Below, in pieces: positions 44,529 through 50,987 of a stretch of 51,214 nucleotides of DNA. How positions within the stretch are numbered: the stretch's first letter is position 1; every line of letters starts with the position of its first letter. The position numbers and the translations under genes were made by a program. The DNA lies in assembly GCA_020343655.1 (NCBI GenBank), contig CP070805.1, positions 641,874 to 693,087 of the forward strand, in the 5' to 3' direction. The notes beneath the pieces are model-generated. The model worked only from the letters and a program-made list of their open reading frames with translations, had not been told where the DNA came from and did not search any database. The DNA is from Promethearchaeota archaeon (GTDB lineage: Archaea > Asgardarchaeota > Lokiarchaeia > Sigyniarchaeales > SOKP01).

Positions 44529-46187
44529 CTATTTTCGTCTCTTTTTTAGCTCTGCTATTGACTTTTCAGCTAAAATTAATGCGTCATCAGACCTTGATTT
44601 ATATTTTTTGACTTGGGCTTCAAGTTCGATAATTTTATTGTTCAAATCTAATACCATTTCGCTACTTTCATCTAATTGTATAATGTCTTCTCCACCTTTC
44701 TTTGCCATCTCTTTCAAGAAATTATACTTTTCCTTCCAAACGTTTATTTCAGTCTGTAATTCTTCTATAGCCTCATCAGTAGCTACGAGGGGAATTTCCT
44801 TGTCTTCTTTTACATCAGCGACTTTTTGCTTTAAACGTGAAACTTCATCCTCTAATTCTTGAATCCTAATTTTTAATGCCGTAATTTCATCTAAATAATC
44901 AGCAGCTCTCTTTGGTTCCAGCATTTCTTCATACATTGACTTACCAGTTTCTAATTCATCAGCGGATTTTCCTCCTAGAAGTCTTTCTTTTCGCTTCTGT
45001 AACTCTTCTACTGTTTGGGGAGAAAGAAAATCTAATGGATTAAAACTAACACCACCGTGCTTTGTTCGTCTTTTCCTTATCTTAACAAAGAGGGGGATTC
45101 CCTTAACAGCTTCACCACAGAGAATAGCTTCCCCTTTATCTAAACCAGAAATATCTGATTTATTCTCATTACTTAAATCTTCAGCACTGGAAATTGTTAT
45201 TCCAATATCTCGTATATCGGAAAGGTTGTGAACAACCCAAGTGCCTGCTTGAGCTCTGATAGTTGTATCTAATAATTGTGGACGCTGTGTTCCAATTACT
45301 ATGTTAGCTCCGAATTTTCTTCCCTCCTGTGCAAATAATTTAACAACCTCACAAGTTTCTGTCTGTTTCTTTCCAGCAAATAAGTGGGCTTCATCTAAAA
45401 ACAAGTAAAAAGGTGGAATGCTTCGTGTTGTACTTGCATCATAAAGTTTCTTTAATAATTTGCCAGCTATAGCTTCTTGAACTTCTAAAGCCATACCATT
45501 TAAATTAACTACGGTACAGAGATTAGGTGCAACTATATCTGAAGGTTTTAATGAAAATAGGTATTCAATATCAACATCACCGCCTTTATTTTTCTTTAAA
45601 TCAGAAAATTCAATTATACTGTCCACAAATTCACTTTCACCCTTAGGAAGATCTTCACCGGCAACCTTTAAAGCTCCGTATTCTCCATGCCTATCCAGTA
45701 TTACTACTGGAATTCCTTTTTTAAGAAACTCCTCTGTCAAAACTCCCATTGTATACGATTTCCCCGAACCTGACTTTCCTGTAATAAAAATCCTGCCAAA
45801 ATTTTTAATCAATAGATATACTTCATAAGGATAACCAATTAACTTTCCTAATGAAAGAGATTCTTCTGGTGGATTGAAGATTCCTAAAATTTTTGAAATT
45901 TGCTCTTCTTTAGCCATGAAGACATCCGTACCAATCTCAAAAGGTCTTGTAGGTCTATCTCCTAATACTGATAACTTTGCCATTCGCCCCTTCTCATCAG
46001 TCCACATTTCAGAAATGTAAAATACATAATAAGGCCTTTTGCCTTCTTCATCTTTTTCACCATAAGCTACTAAATAGTTATTCCGTTCAACTAAAGTGCC
46101 TTCAAATACAACAGTAACTGTATGAGTCGTCGTTTTACCAGTTAATCTGCCTACAGGTTTTTCTTCTTGTGAACCTTCTTTTAACAT
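44529..46187 (-). CDS. HerA-like ATPase with C-terminal coiled coil
   Basis: This 552-residue ATPase of the HerA/FtsK superfamily has an N-terminal beta-barrel of the HAS type (VTVVFEGTLVERNNYLVAYG), Walker A GKSGSGKS (137-144), the conserved LDRHGEYGAL stretch, Walker B LFLDEAH (262-268), and the sensor/arginine finger region IVIGTQRPQLLDTTIRAQ. Residues about 430-552 are coiled coil with repeating heptads. HerA normally couples to NurA nuclease to resect DNA ends, but no nurA, mre11 or rad50 gene is in the window, and typical HerA has no such coiled-coil tail. A translocase acting with another partner is therefore possible. Confidence 0.82.
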   Translation of the reverse strand: MLKEGSQEEKPVGRLTGKTTTHTVTVVFEGTLVERNNYLVAYGEKDEEGKRPYYVFYISEMWTDEKGRMAKLSVLGDRPTRPFEIGTDVFMAKEEQISKILGIFNPPEESLSLGKLIGYPYEVYLLIKNFGRIFITGKSGSGKSYTMGVLTEEFLKKGIPVVILDRHGEYGALKVAGEDLPKGESEFVDSIIEFSDLKKNKGGDVDIEYLFSLKPSDIVAPNLCTVVNLNGMALEVQEAIAGKLLKKLYDASTTRSIPPFYLFLDEAHLFAGKKQTETCEVVKLFAQEGRKFGANIVIGTQRPQLLDTTIRAQAGTWVVHNLSDIRDIGITISSAEDLSNENKSDISGLDKGEAILCGEAVKGIPLFVKIRKRRTKHGGVSFNPLDFLSPQTVEELQKRKERLLGGKSADELETGKSMYEEMLEPKRAADYLDEITALKIRIQELEDEVSRLKQKVADVKEDKEIPLVATDEAIEELQTEINVWKEKYNFLKEMAKKGGEDIIQLDESSEMVLDLNNKIIELEAQVKKYKSRSDDALILAEKSIAELKKRRK

Positions 46188-46507
46188 TAACTTTCACACT
46201 TAATTCGATTTTTTAGTATTATAAGTAATTTTACATATATTAATATAAATATTTGTAAATCAAATTATTGTCCTCTCTAGAATTTGAAAGAATCATTATT
46301 TCTTGCTCAAAAATTGGTATTAATAAAATAAACAATACATTACCATAATTCTTTATGACTTCTTTTTTTATAATTTCTCTTTCTATGTATGCAATTCGCT
46401 TTCTTAAATGTTATTATAGCAAAGTTAACGATGTTTAGAGCATTAATTTTTTATAGGAGAAATACCCCTTTCTTTAAATGGTATAATATGCGAAAATTTT
46501 TGAATGA
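46188..46507. other. Intergenic gap, nothing recognised
   Basis: This 320 bp stretch holds no supported gene or RNA. A short frame beginning ATG at 46488 stops at 46535. It includes the promoter region of the leftward HerA-like gene and otherwise looks like AT-rich decay next to a pseudogene. Confidence 0.4.
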
Positions 46508-46894
46508 AAGGATAGATATAAAGTTCCTTTAGACAAAATACTTGCTCATGCTTTTGTGTGTGAAAGCAAAGTGCTATATAGATTAAACTACAGTAATCCC
46601 CTCGTTAGGGTTGGAGTTGGGGCAAAAAGCTATGATAAGGTTGTTTATATGGCACTAGATTATGATCTTGAAGGAGGTTATCAGAAATATTTTAATCGAG
46701 AGACTCAATAATTTCCAGAACCTTATATATCAATAAGGGTAAATAAAAATCATAGGGTAAATATAATTAAGCAAAACTTGAAAATTTGGGAATTTCCTTA
46801 TAAACATGATTCAAGGGGTAATGATAAACATAGATGTCCTAAATGTGGACATGAATTTAAAGATAACGAAGAAAATGAAAATTTTACTTTTTAA
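46508..46894 (+). pseudogene. Decayed gene with C-terminal zinc ribbon
   Basis: From 46508 one frame reads VPLDKILAHAFVCESKVLY and continues through GVGAKSYDKVVYMALDYDL to an in-frame TAA at 46709-46711. The same frame then carries on FPEPYISIRVNKNHRVNI and ends in HRCPKCGHEFKDNEEN, a single C-x2-C knuckle, before TAA at 46892-46894. No start codon with a ribosome binding site lies in front. The reading quality on both sides of the stop suggests a decayed gene. The original function is not recognised; mobile-element or accessory origin is possible given the surrounding decay. Confidence 0.5.
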
Positions 46895-47168
46895 AAGATA
46901 ATACATTTATATTTTAAGAAAATAATAATCCTACTATTATAGGTTCTGTGTATTTCTTTATTGATTTTTATTTATTTTTTTTAAAAAGTCTTTAATTTAA
47001 TTAAATTAAATATAAGAATAAAAGATAAATATAGTAAAAGTCTAAAAAAAGGAGTCTGACGTATTAAACACTCAATTACAATAGAGTAACCACAAAAAAT
47101 ATAAAAAATTTTAAAAACAAAAGTGTTTTAGTCTTTAAATATATAGATAATCCTAATATGTTAATAAT

Positions 47169-49103
47169 ATGATATTAAATTCCAATTATTTAAAATCAAA
47201 TATAAGAAAAAAAAAAGCACTTTTTCTATCAATAATAGTATCAATATCCCTTTTAATAATCCATATCACCTCTTTTAGTTTATTTTGTCAAGAGCAAGAT
47301 AATAATGAGGTTAACCATTTAAATGGAGAAAATTTATGTAAATCATCTATCTTTTATCATCCTGATCCTAATGAAGGTGGAGCAATAACAGATTGGTTAA
47401 CAATCGGGCCATTTAATTATTTCAATCCAGATTGGGACCATCCTATTACTACGGATAAGTATCATTTCAATATAACAGACACATATATAGAAGGAGATTA
47501 TGCTCTAGGGGGAGATGCAGTAGGATTTCTGAATGAAAGTAAACAATGGGCATATGTAGACTTTACTAAATTCTCAAGTTATTCAGACAACCATGGTTAT
47601 TTAGATTTTAATCACCGTTTTGGTGGCAGTTATTGTTGTGAACCAGAACATGTCTGCGGTTATGCATCTTGTTATATTAGAAGCCCTGTTGATTTAAATT
47701 CTGCTTACCTAAAAGTTGGCTCAGATGATGGAATAAAAATCTGGAGAGATGGGATTAAAATCCATGACAATCACATTTTAAGGCATCATTATCCCGATAG
47801 AGAAGTTGTGGATGCAGGTCCTTTATCATTTGAAGCAGGTAAATGGTATTATTTTATTGTTTTAGTTGAAGAGAATGATATGCACTGGGGTTTTTTTTTC
47901 AGATTTTCCAATAATAGCAATTTATATGATGTTAATCCAGAAAATGACCCCGATGCTATCACAAATTTGGATATAAGTATTGGGGAATTTTTTGATGTCC
48001 CTCATTCTAATCTAATTTTGGGTGATATTGTTGAGTCATCAAAAAATTTAAATGTGAGAAATATTACAGAATGGAATAATCCCTTAGATCCGAATAATAT
48101 CATCTTTACCATGCAACCCCCTCATAGTAGATCGAATCCGCCTTATGATACTGGTAGAATCATTGATGGACCCATAATTGATTATTTAAGTGAATACTTA
48201 TGGTGGAAAATTGAATGGGATAATGCAGAAATAGGTTGGTCTGCTGAATTTGCCCTTAATTTCCCTAATGAAAAATATTTTATTAAAAGTGAAAAGGAAT
48301 TTAAAAAAATTCAAGATATAGAAGACCCTTTTAACTACAACCAACAATATGAATTAGATAATTCTGAATTATTAGATCTTGAAGATGATGCTTTATCAAT
48401 AATCAAAATTTATGCTAATTTATATAAAATAAGCCCTGCTTTGTTAATGGGTTTAATAAGTCATGAAACGGGCCATTCTTTTGATCCTAATTCAGAGGGA
48501 GATTATATTGAAGGTTATAATTTTGATCCAATGCAAAATAACTATGAACCTACAGCTTTCGGTTATATGCAAGTAAGATGGCCAGCGGCTTATGATCTAG
48601 TAAGTTATAATTTAGTAGAAAAATGGTGGGAGGAAGTAACCATATATGGCGATCTTATAGATAGATATAATTGGTTTTTTGAAAATTGCAGCTATTGGTT
48701 TGGTGGAGTTCAACCAACAGATGAAAAATTTTTTGCTTATTTACATTGGGCTAATCTAGGGACAGATCCCGAGACAAACATTAAATTTGGCACTTTATAT
48801 TTAAAGGATAAGTATGATAAAATTCTTACAAATTCTTTCGAAGATATATATAATGATTCAATGAAAAGTGCATTATCTGCATATAATGCTTATTCTCCTA
48901 AATTAATAAATAGGAAAAATTACGTATTAGAAGGTGTTATTGAAGGTAGTAGGGATTACAAATTCTTTTTATCAATTATCAAAAGAGACCAACCTATACC
49001 TACTGCATTTGTTAAAGGATACAATTTAATTATAATTATAGGAATTATCTCTTGCATTGGAGTAGCTGTGATATTAAGACAGAAATATAAAATTGCAAGG
49101 TAG
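47169..49103 (+). CDS. Secreted SH3b and lysozyme-like transglycosylase protein with membrane anchor
   Basis: This 644-residue protein has an N-terminal membrane/signal segment (18-39), an external beta-rich region (70-250) resembling PA14-like or carbohydrate-binding modules (LKVGSDDGIKIWRDGIKI), an SH3b-type domain (about 285-365) with SSKNLNVRN then WWKIEWDNAEIGWSAEF, and a lysozyme-like SLT domain (about 405-580). The latter has all its landmarks: ISHETGHSF with the catalytic Glu433, AFGYMQV (463-469), TNIKFGTLYLKDKY (536-549) and ALSAYNAY (568-575). A single C-terminal helix (618-636) followed by RQKYKIAR anchors it facing outward. In bacteria this layout cleaves peptidoglycan; the archaeal substrate is unknown. 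Confidence 0.82.
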   Translation: MILNSNYLKSNIRKKKALFLSIIVSISLLIIHITSFSLFCQEQDNNEVNHLNGENLCKSSIFYHPDPNEGGAITDWLTIGPFNYFNPDWDHPITTDKYHFNITDTYIEGDYALGGDAVGFLNESKQWAYVDFTKFSSYSDNHGYLDFNHRFGGSYCCEPEHVCGYASCYIRSPVDLNSAYLKVGSDDGIKIWRDGIKIHDNHILRHHYPDREVVDAGPLSFEAGKWYYFIVLVEENDMHWGFFFRFSNNSNLYDVNPENDPDAITNLDISIGEFFDVPHSNLILGDIVESSKNLNVRNITEWNNPLDPNNIIFTMQPPHSRSNPPYDTGRIIDGPIIDYLSEYLWWKIEWDNAEIGWSAEFALNFPNEKYFIKSEKEFKKIQDIEDPFNYNQQYELDNSELLDLEDDALSIIKIYANLYKISPALLMGLISHETGHSFDPNSEGDYIEGYNFDPMQNNYEPTAFGYMQVRWPAAYDLVSYNLVEKWWEEVTIYGDLIDRYNWFFENCSYWFGGVQPTDEKFFAYLHWANLGTDPETNIKFGTLYLKDKYDKILTNSFEDIYNDSMKSALSAYNAYSPKLINRKNYVLEGVIEGSRDYKFFLSIIKRDQPIPTAFVKGYNLIIIIGIISCIGVAVILRQKYKIAR

Positions 49104-49211
49104 TTTTATTTATTTAAATAATAAATATCCCTTCATTAACTACTTATTATATAAATCATTGCTTTTTTAATTAATATATTAGTTAATATAGTAGTTATAT
49201 TTATCATACAA

Positions 49212-49668
49212 TTATCTTTTTTTATAGATTATACCTTTCTTTATCATTCTAAGTGGCTTATAAGATTCTTTTGCTCGTCTTAACTCTTCTATACCTAAAT
49301 CTTGTTCTCTATTAACATAAATTGCATCCACACAGCAATTTTTCAAAAGCAAATTATTGATTGCTTGATAAGACCCCTGATATTCCGCATGAGCTTTCTC
49401 AATATGTATCACTAAAGTTCTTTCATTTAACATTTCACCAAATGTATAAGCCGCACATTTATCCTCCACACATAATAATCCCCCACTAAAACCAAGCGTT
49501 TCAAAATTATCTAAAGCTTCATATATTGCATCCTGTTCTGCTTCTAAACTTTCATCTTCAGTACAGGCTCTCATTATACACCATTCCAATTGGAGCTCTC
49601 TACATTTTTCAACATGATTTGCTGTTAATAATTGGAAAACATACTCATAATTGTCTAAAAACTTATGT
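49212..49668 (-). pseudogene. DUF2156 (lysyltransferase-like) protein, N-terminally truncated
   Basis: The C-terminal GNAT-like part of DUF2156 is well preserved: GGLLCVEDKCAAYTFGEML, HIEKAHAEYQGSYQAINN, IYVNREQDLGIEELRRAK and a final YKPLRMIKKG. Family sequence continues upstream of the first usable TTG (49589) through KFLDNYEYVFQLLTANHVEK up to about 49668, where it becomes unlike the family, and a stop follows near 49700. About half of the protein, including the N-terminal GNAT lobe, is missing. DUF2156 is the family of phosphatidylglycerol lysyltransferase catalytic domains; the original substrate is unknown. Confidence 0.7.
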
Positions 49669-49862
49669 AGCCATTGTAGAATTTGAAGAACAATGTTACA
49701 AGGAGCAAAAGGAAAATCCTAATCAAGAAAAATATATTTATTGGTTTCACATGGGCATACCTGTTAAAATTCTATTTGAAGAATTGGATTTAAAAAAATT
49801 TACAAATAAAAAATAAAAACATATTCTTTTTATTTCAAACAATAAATCTAATTTTTTTTACT

Positions 49863-50043
49863 TTACACCTTTTTATAAATGATACTCTTTTTATTCATTT
49901 TGATTGGTTTATATGACTCTTTTGCTCTTCTTAGCCCTTCTAGTCCTAAATCCTGTTCCCTATTAACATAAATCGCATCTAGACAGCAATTTTTTAAGAG
50001 TAAATTGTTGATTGCTTGATAAGAACCCTCATATTCCACATAA
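49863..50043 (-). pseudogene. Second DUF2156 C-terminal fragment, partial tandem copy
   Basis: About 60 codons on this strand repeat the end of the neighbouring gene: YVEYEGSYQAINNLLLKN, AIYVNREQDLGLEGLRRAKE and SYKPIKMNKKSIIYKKV before TAA at 49863-49865. It is about 80 percent identical at DNA level to 49224-49396 by eye. Similarity stops abruptly near 50043 upstream. It has no start and is a remnant of a tandem duplication. Confidence 0.75.
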
Positions 50044-50228
50044 AGTAATATAAGTTATAATGATCTTAGAAATTTTAAAAATATAAATCTAAGCGAATTA
50101 TAAAAAAAGAAGCATAGAAAGGAGGATTGTTGGTTTAGTAGTAACTTCACCTGGAAGTATTTTACCTAACCCAGCTCCTCCATTTACTATATTTTGATTT
50201 TAAATTAAAAAATTATATCGCAACATTT

Positions 50229-50987
50229 TTACTCAACAATTATAATTTCTACAGGCCACTTGTAATCTCCAGTGTCTAGATCCAAAATCGCTACCTGATT
50301 GACTTTAACTGTCCCTTCTCCTCCTTCAGTTAAATATCCTTCCGCAGTTATATGCATGAATGTTATAACCGGAATATCTGATGGAGTTGGAGGAAAATCA
50401 GGATTAGGAAAGACATGAATTATCTCAAAAATTGATGGTAATCTTCCCCACTTTTCAAACCAATCATTTAACATTTCTGTATTGAAAAGAATCTTACATT
50501 GGAAGTTATAGTTCATAGTACCAGCGGATATTGGTTCGTAATTGTACCAAAAGGGGTAAGGACCAGAGACATACCAGTTGAATAACAAAAAGGGAACTTC
50601 TTTTACGTGTAGGTTTATGGAAATTAAGGTACTTTCTTCATCTATCTCTGTTTCCTGTATACACCCTCCATGTGGACATTGCCCTAAAACTTTATACTCC
50701 CAGGCGAGAAAGTTAAAAACGGGAATAGGACCCGCGAATGGACCAACCCATTCAACAGCATGAGGATAAATGCATAACCCAGAATCTGGATCAGCCCAAG
50801 CTAAGAATGATCCTGGCAAATCCACAATATCTAAAAAGGCAACATATTCTCCAGCATAATCGTCTATTGGTCTGATTATTGTAGCTCCACGACCTTGAAC
50901 TGTTGTAGAGAAACTCAAAATAATTAGTCCTAATGTAAGGAATATTAACAATTTTGGTATTAATTTCGTTCTGTTAATTTTTATCAA
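50229..50987 (-). CDS. Secreted protein of unknown function
   Basis: This 252-residue protein has a clear signal peptide (LIPKLLIFLTLGLIILSFST, cleavage probably near TVQGRG). The mature part of about 220 residues is rich in Pro, Trp, Tyr and acidic residues and looks beta-rich (GYLTEGGEGTVKVNQVAI, VLGQCPHGGCIQET). The pair CPHGGC could form a disulfide or hold a metal. No family is recognised. No membrane anchor is seen, so it may be free outside the cell or held by the surface layer. Confidence 0.6.
   Translation of the reverse strand: MIKINRTKLIPKLLIFLTLGLIILSFSTTVQGRGATIIRPIDDYAGEYVAFLDIVDLPGSFLAWADPDSGLCIYPHAVEWVGPFAGPIPVFNFLAWEYKVLGQCPHGGCIQETEIDEESTLISINLHVKEVPFLLFNWYVSGPYPFWYNYEPISAGTMNYNFQCKILFNTEMLNDWFEKWGRLPSIFEIIHVFPNPDFPPTPSDIPVITFMHITAEGYLTEGGEGTVKVNQVAILDLDTGDYKWPVEIIIVE

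Follow-up and report, generated by a model that had tools for sequence, protein, structure and literature searches.

An Asgard archaeal protein with a predicted membrane anchor joins an Asgard surface-protein domain to SH3b-like and SLT/GH23 domains of bacterial type

Overall architecture and genomic setting

The window analyzed here, comprising 51,214 nucleotides of contig CP070805.1 (positions 641,874 to 693,087, forward strand) from the assembly GCA_020343655.1 of a Promethearchaeota archaeon, encodes a 644-aa protein that, judged by its sequence, is most plausibly a lineage-specific chimera in which bacterial-type wall domains are joined to one of Asgard type, rather than the product of a whole bacterial gene (Table 1). 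We propose that the protein is probably a surface-tethered enzyme of the GH23 type, which would cleave the peptidoglycan of touching bacteria or of bacterial debris. The open reading frame (47169-49103, + strand, ATG start) is present as given in an earlier, sequence-only reading of this DNA, which described the product as having a bacterial-type layout. This description holds for the SLT and SH3b parts, but not for the N-terminal third, which is an Asgard surface-protein domain and thus points to assembly of the protein by domain shuffling within the archaeal lineage. Among known prokaryotes, Asgard archaea are the nearest relatives of eukaryotes, and the ways in which they interact with bacteria are relevant to the origin of eukaryotes; if able to open bacterial walls, a surface enzyme of this kind would represent a concrete, testable means of Asgard-bacteria interaction.

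The contig that carries the SLT gene is archaeal and 2.27 Mb in length, and the source genome contains three gelsolin-domain matches compared with none in 14 control genomes, as fits an Asgard archaeon. Bacterial contamination as the source of the gene was rejected in view of the length of this contig, the gelsolin-domain genes of the genome and the conserved synteny, as well as the codon usage, which together with the GC content is that of the adjoining genes, and the Asgard domain within the SLT protein itself.

Table 1. Features of the SLT gene, its product and its flanks (positions are those of the window)
Feature	Position	Strand	Basis
Whole gene, chimeric surface protein of 644 aa	47169..49103	+	ORF; codon usage and GC as in neighbors
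Signal sequence or signal anchor, residues 1-40	47169..47288	+	RKKK, hydrophobic from about residue 15; predicted
PA14-like domain, residues 61-271, common to giant Asgard surface proteins	47349..47981	+	Homology; PA14 match in 2/6
SH3b-like domain with insertion, residues 285-365	48021..48263	+	Custom profile; 31% identity to Halocatena SH3b
SLT/GH23 domain, residues 404-600	48378..48968	+	Pfam, custom profile, alignment, model
Glu433, aligned to the catalytic Glu of SLT enzymes	48465..48467	+	Invariant column
GYMQ motif, residues 465-468, corresponding to GLMQ of SLT	48561..48572	+	51-row alignment
Large insertion separating GYMQ from DPETNI, about residues 477-530, exceeding the usual length by about 49 residues	48597..48758	+	Alignment; low model confidence
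DPETNI motif, residues 533-538	48765..48782	+	Pfam, profile, alignment
AYNA motif, residues 571-574 (YNxG of SLT, here YNAY)	48879..48890	+	Profile, alignment
C-terminal membrane helix, about residues 616-634, then basic tail	49014..49070	+	Hydropathy
HerA-like ATPase gene, conserved left flank	44529..46187	-	83-91% identity in 15/18 congeners
Truncated LPG_synthase_C gene, right flank; in congeners about 310 aa and beside HerA	49212..49589	-	Pfam, congener comparison
Repeat copy of the 3' end of the LPG gene	49871..50041	-	blastn to congeners
Segment lying just upstream of HerA in congeners, here 4 kb off	50033..50099	-	92-97% identity, several congeners

The C-terminal half contains a divergent SLT/GH23 domain

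The presence of an SLT domain in the C-terminal half, as initially read from the sequence, is borne out in a divergent SLT/GH23 form; the family assignment is well supported, and a lysozyme-type fold is probable. The Pfam family PF01464 (SLT) matches with 24.7 bits in the whole protein and 28.8 bits in the domain alone, above the curated cutoff of 21.3, with the match spanning residues 528-576 only and leaving the part with Glu433 outside. A profile of 54 bacterial and phage SLTs, from which the query was left out, scores 29 bits against the domain, far above the best of 5,000 shuffles (8.7), and reaches 38.5 bits across the whole core once both insertions are cut in silico. The insertion-free alignment pairs Glu433 (correctly numbered in the sequence-only reading, in the context GLISHE(433)TGHSF) with the invariant glutamate and GYMQ with GLMQ. 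The first of these insertions, of approximately 17 residues, lies between Glu433 and GYMQ. The protein retains each of the ten columns that are invariant in a 51-row alignment, namely Glu433, A463, G465, M467, Q468, N537, G541, Y572, N573 and Y597. The claim that all SLT landmark motifs are present therefore stands for these ten columns, but not for two further positions: the residue following Glu433 is a threonine (ET), where all 54 SLTs have serine (ES), and a tyrosine takes the place of the glycine of YNxG after AYNA (YNAY). Because of these two changes, activity is not assured.

A structural model of the SLT domain, predicted from the 51-row alignment, has a pTM of 0.66, with pLDDT values of about 84-93 near the helix bearing the glutamate and near that of the DPETNI motif, falling to about 56-65 within the large insertion. 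As expected for GH23, the helix that carries Glu433 ends at this residue in the model. Foldseek matches in the PDB are to lytic transglycosylases (best), goose-type lysozymes and the lysozyme-fold protein Tse3, all weak (E >0.1), and those in a viral structure library are mostly to phage transglycosylases, likewise with weak E-values. Since the SLT alignment guided the model, model and fold search are consistent with a lysozyme fold and are not independent proof of it. A single-sequence prediction, with a pLDDT of 32, was set aside.

Putative binding domains and membrane segments

The segment preceding the SLT domain scores 21.5 bits on a five-member SH3b profile, compared with a maximum of 9.6 in 20,000 shuffles, which upholds the proposed SH3b-like domain; a Pfam search of the segment gave no match, SH3_3 not being reached. 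PDB sequence matches of the same segment (E about 1) were disregarded as chance.

Residues 61-271 share 64% identity with a protein of a sister genus and 31-40% with proteins in four more distant genomes. PF07691 (PA14) matches two of the six members of this domain family (best E 4.8e-4), and the copy in the query itself is without a match, such that the possible carbohydrate-binding region of the sequence-only reading can be retained as PA14-like through its homologs, but not through PF07691 in its own sequence. The same domain is found in giant Asgard surface proteins of 1366-2602 aa (L015-L018), which differ from the SLT protein in that no SLT or SH3b domain was found in them. One further match, to an unrelated pterin-binding protein (G049), was discarded. 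With a fifth member added (L015-L019), this PA14-like family, mostly unseen by Pfam, extends to giant Asgard surface proteins of 1366-4688 aa.

Hydrophobic stretches are located near both termini (residues ~15-41 and 609-640) and suggest export and C-terminal membrane anchoring, in agreement with the description of the protein as secreted and C-terminally anchored. The anchor is well supported by hydropathy, whereas export is predicted from the hydrophobic N-terminus.

Distribution and origin

Searches of the other 226 Asgard genomes recovered neither the SLT part nor the SH3b part. PF01464 matches occur in 6 of 196 Asgard genomes, where the other five carriers are short or odd ORFs (L021-L025), some on contigs of different GC; these were rejected as close relatives and are unrelated to the SLT protein. 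Among them, the ORF L023:5384-7156 fuses a truncated SLT to a PAPS-reductase domain, possibly through an assembly join, and the stretch L024 (G194:C110), with a GC content of 50%, well above that of the other Asgard stretches examined here, is possibly bacterial contamination.

Full-length and SLT-domain searches of genome contigs, viral contigs, phages and plasmids gave no close relative, and a scan for the SLT-motif pattern returned six generic bacterial SLTs, all without the insertions. Among bacterial SLTs, the nearest ones recovered are generic, and no relative was found closer than this level. Randomized search baits and three consensus-like search sequences were kept out of the evidence.

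Comparison with known peptidoglycan hydrolases

With the GH23/PF01464 lytic transglycosylases Slt70, MltC and MltF, the Asgard protein shares the catalytic-type glutamate at a helix end, G-x-M-Q, N-I-x-x-G, Y-N and the final tyrosine. It differs from them in its insertions of ~17 and ~49 residues, in reading ET for ES and YNAY for YNxG, and in being archaeal, C-terminally membrane-anchored and equipped with a PA14-like domain.

Peptidoglycan hydrolases are already established in archaea, whereas the combination of PA14-like, SH3b and SLT domains turned up in none of the other Asgard genomes searched; no paper on a wall hydrolase in Asgards was found in the literature searched. Modular peptidoglycan hydrolases were reported in nearly 5% of archaeal genomes, and two M23 enzymes of Halogranum were shown to kill bacteria (PMC12352652). 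The Halogranum enzymes resemble the Asgard protein in their binding modules, patchy distribution and domain shuffling, but are M23 peptidases, whereas the Asgard SLT is a glycosidase-type domain. The survey required Pfam matches to both catalytic and binding domains. As only the catalytic domain of the Asgard protein is matched by Pfam, its SH3b going undetected, the protein falls outside this formal definition and would have been missed, although it may work like a modular hydrolase; Asgards go unmentioned in the main text of that study. A GH25 muramidase of Aciduliprofundum boonei, reported as antibacterial (PMC4241558), is a wall glycosidase acquired by an archaeon, as the Asgard protein would be, but differs in family, fold and domains. 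Woesearchaeotal MAGs carry large lytic murein transglycosylases that also belong to GH23 and are proposed to degrade bacterial walls (PMC9723730), in another phylum and with no mention of a combination with PA14-like or SH3b domains.

A further archaeal SLT-type protein, encoded on a plasmid of Halocatena salina (WP_247995213.1), shares the SH3b variant of the Asgard protein, the two SH3b domains being 31% identical. This protein is distinct in having 243 aa, a C-terminal SH3b, no PA14-like domain, a best SLT match to SLT_2 and no C-terminal anchor seen, as well as in being plasmid-borne. On the plasmid (NZ_CP096020.1; L156:3470-4993), the SLT+SH3b gene is directly followed by an M23+SH3b gene with nearly the same SH3b; the two genes are candidates for a two-enzyme wall-cutting pair. 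This pairing lends support to the reading of the Asgard protein as a GH23 enzyme.

Proposed function and alternatives

We suggest that an N-terminal signal would export the protein and the C-terminal helix would hold it in the archaeal membrane, where the PA14-like and SH3b domains may bind glycan or bacterial wall material. With Glu433 as the presumed catalytic acid/base, the SLT domain would then cleave the MurNAc-GlcNAc beta-1,4 bond in the peptidoglycan of bacteria in contact with the archaeal cell, or of bacterial debris, and the benefit could be antagonism or nutrient release. This peptidoglycan-glycosidase reading is favored by the domain content, the conserved glutamate, the hydrophobic anchors, the patchy distribution, the position of the insertion at a variable site and the finding that no Mur ligase was matched in the source genome, which is 82% complete. 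Counting against it are the ET and YNAY changes, the two large insertions, the Foldseek E-values above 0.1, the alignment-guided nature of the model and the failure of the searches to turn up a close relative. That the archaeon breaches and feeds on adjacent bacteria through a contact-dependent, membrane-tethered wall-cutting enzyme, its own domain fused to bacterial-type wall domains, is a more specific scenario that we regard as doubtful.

The SH3b and PA14-like domains can bind targets other than peptidoglycan, and the sequence by itself would fit either a bacterial target or a glycan of the archaeon. The protein could accordingly be an envelope-remodeling enzyme with a retained GH23 fold, acting on the cell's own surface glycan or S-layer glycoprotein, where the C-terminal anchor would keep it and where PA14-like domains are also present in other Asgard surface proteins. 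Such a housekeeping role would predict that relatives possess the gene, yet the SLT and SH3b parts were recovered from none of the other Asgard genomes searched; this and the lack of a Mur-ligase match make the role unlikely. A bacterial target is favored by the published archaeal peptidoglycan hydrolases, in addition to the patchy distribution and the Mur-ligase result. Also unlikely is a non-catalytic adhesin that has lost SLT catalysis and holds bacteria or debris: the two changed positions and the large insertions would be in keeping with it, but the retention of Glu433 and the ten invariant columns would be unexpected after a long loss of activity. Digestion of chitin or another GlcNAc polymer as food appears improbable. 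GH23 includes chitinolytic members, the SLT profile matches solved lysozyme-like enzymes of this type (3w6b, 3w6e) and the PA14-like domain might bind polysaccharide, but the matches are family-wide and weaker than those to lytic transglycosylases, and SH3b is mostly a wall-associated domain. Finally, the letters HETGH (432-436), preceded by a hydrophobic helix, fit the HExxH motif of zinc peptidases, but a metallopeptidase is highly implausible given that Pfam, NCBIfam and PDB sequence searches gave no peptidase family, that the glutamate aligns with the SLT glutamate with other SLT landmarks downstream, and that a histidine also precedes this glutamate in two of the 54 SLTs.

The gene occupies a variable site between HerA and LPG-synthase genes

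The SLT gene, for which we favor the peptidoglycan-glycosidase reading, is situated between HerA and LPG-synthase genes that are neighbors in most congeners examined. The LPG-synthase gene lies upstream of HerA in 11 of 13 congener regions, within ~110-260 bp in seven of these, and by this comparison the SLT gene is a lineage-specific insertion. The same interval holds different cargo in two congeners, including a gene for a 1724-aa surface protein, which indicates that it is a variable site. It spans 46188-50100 in the window, 9376-12100 in L143 and 2700-11000 in L144, and is empty in several congeners.

Upstream of the SLT gene, a decayed open frame (46490-46895) has a zinc-ribbon-like end (CPKCGHEF) and weak Pfam matches only. 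Beyond the broken LPG gene, positions 50229-50987 encode a 252-aa predicted secreted protein with no Pfam match, which occurs patchily among congeners, in 4 of 19 genomes of the genus, and has a codon usage atypical for the window.
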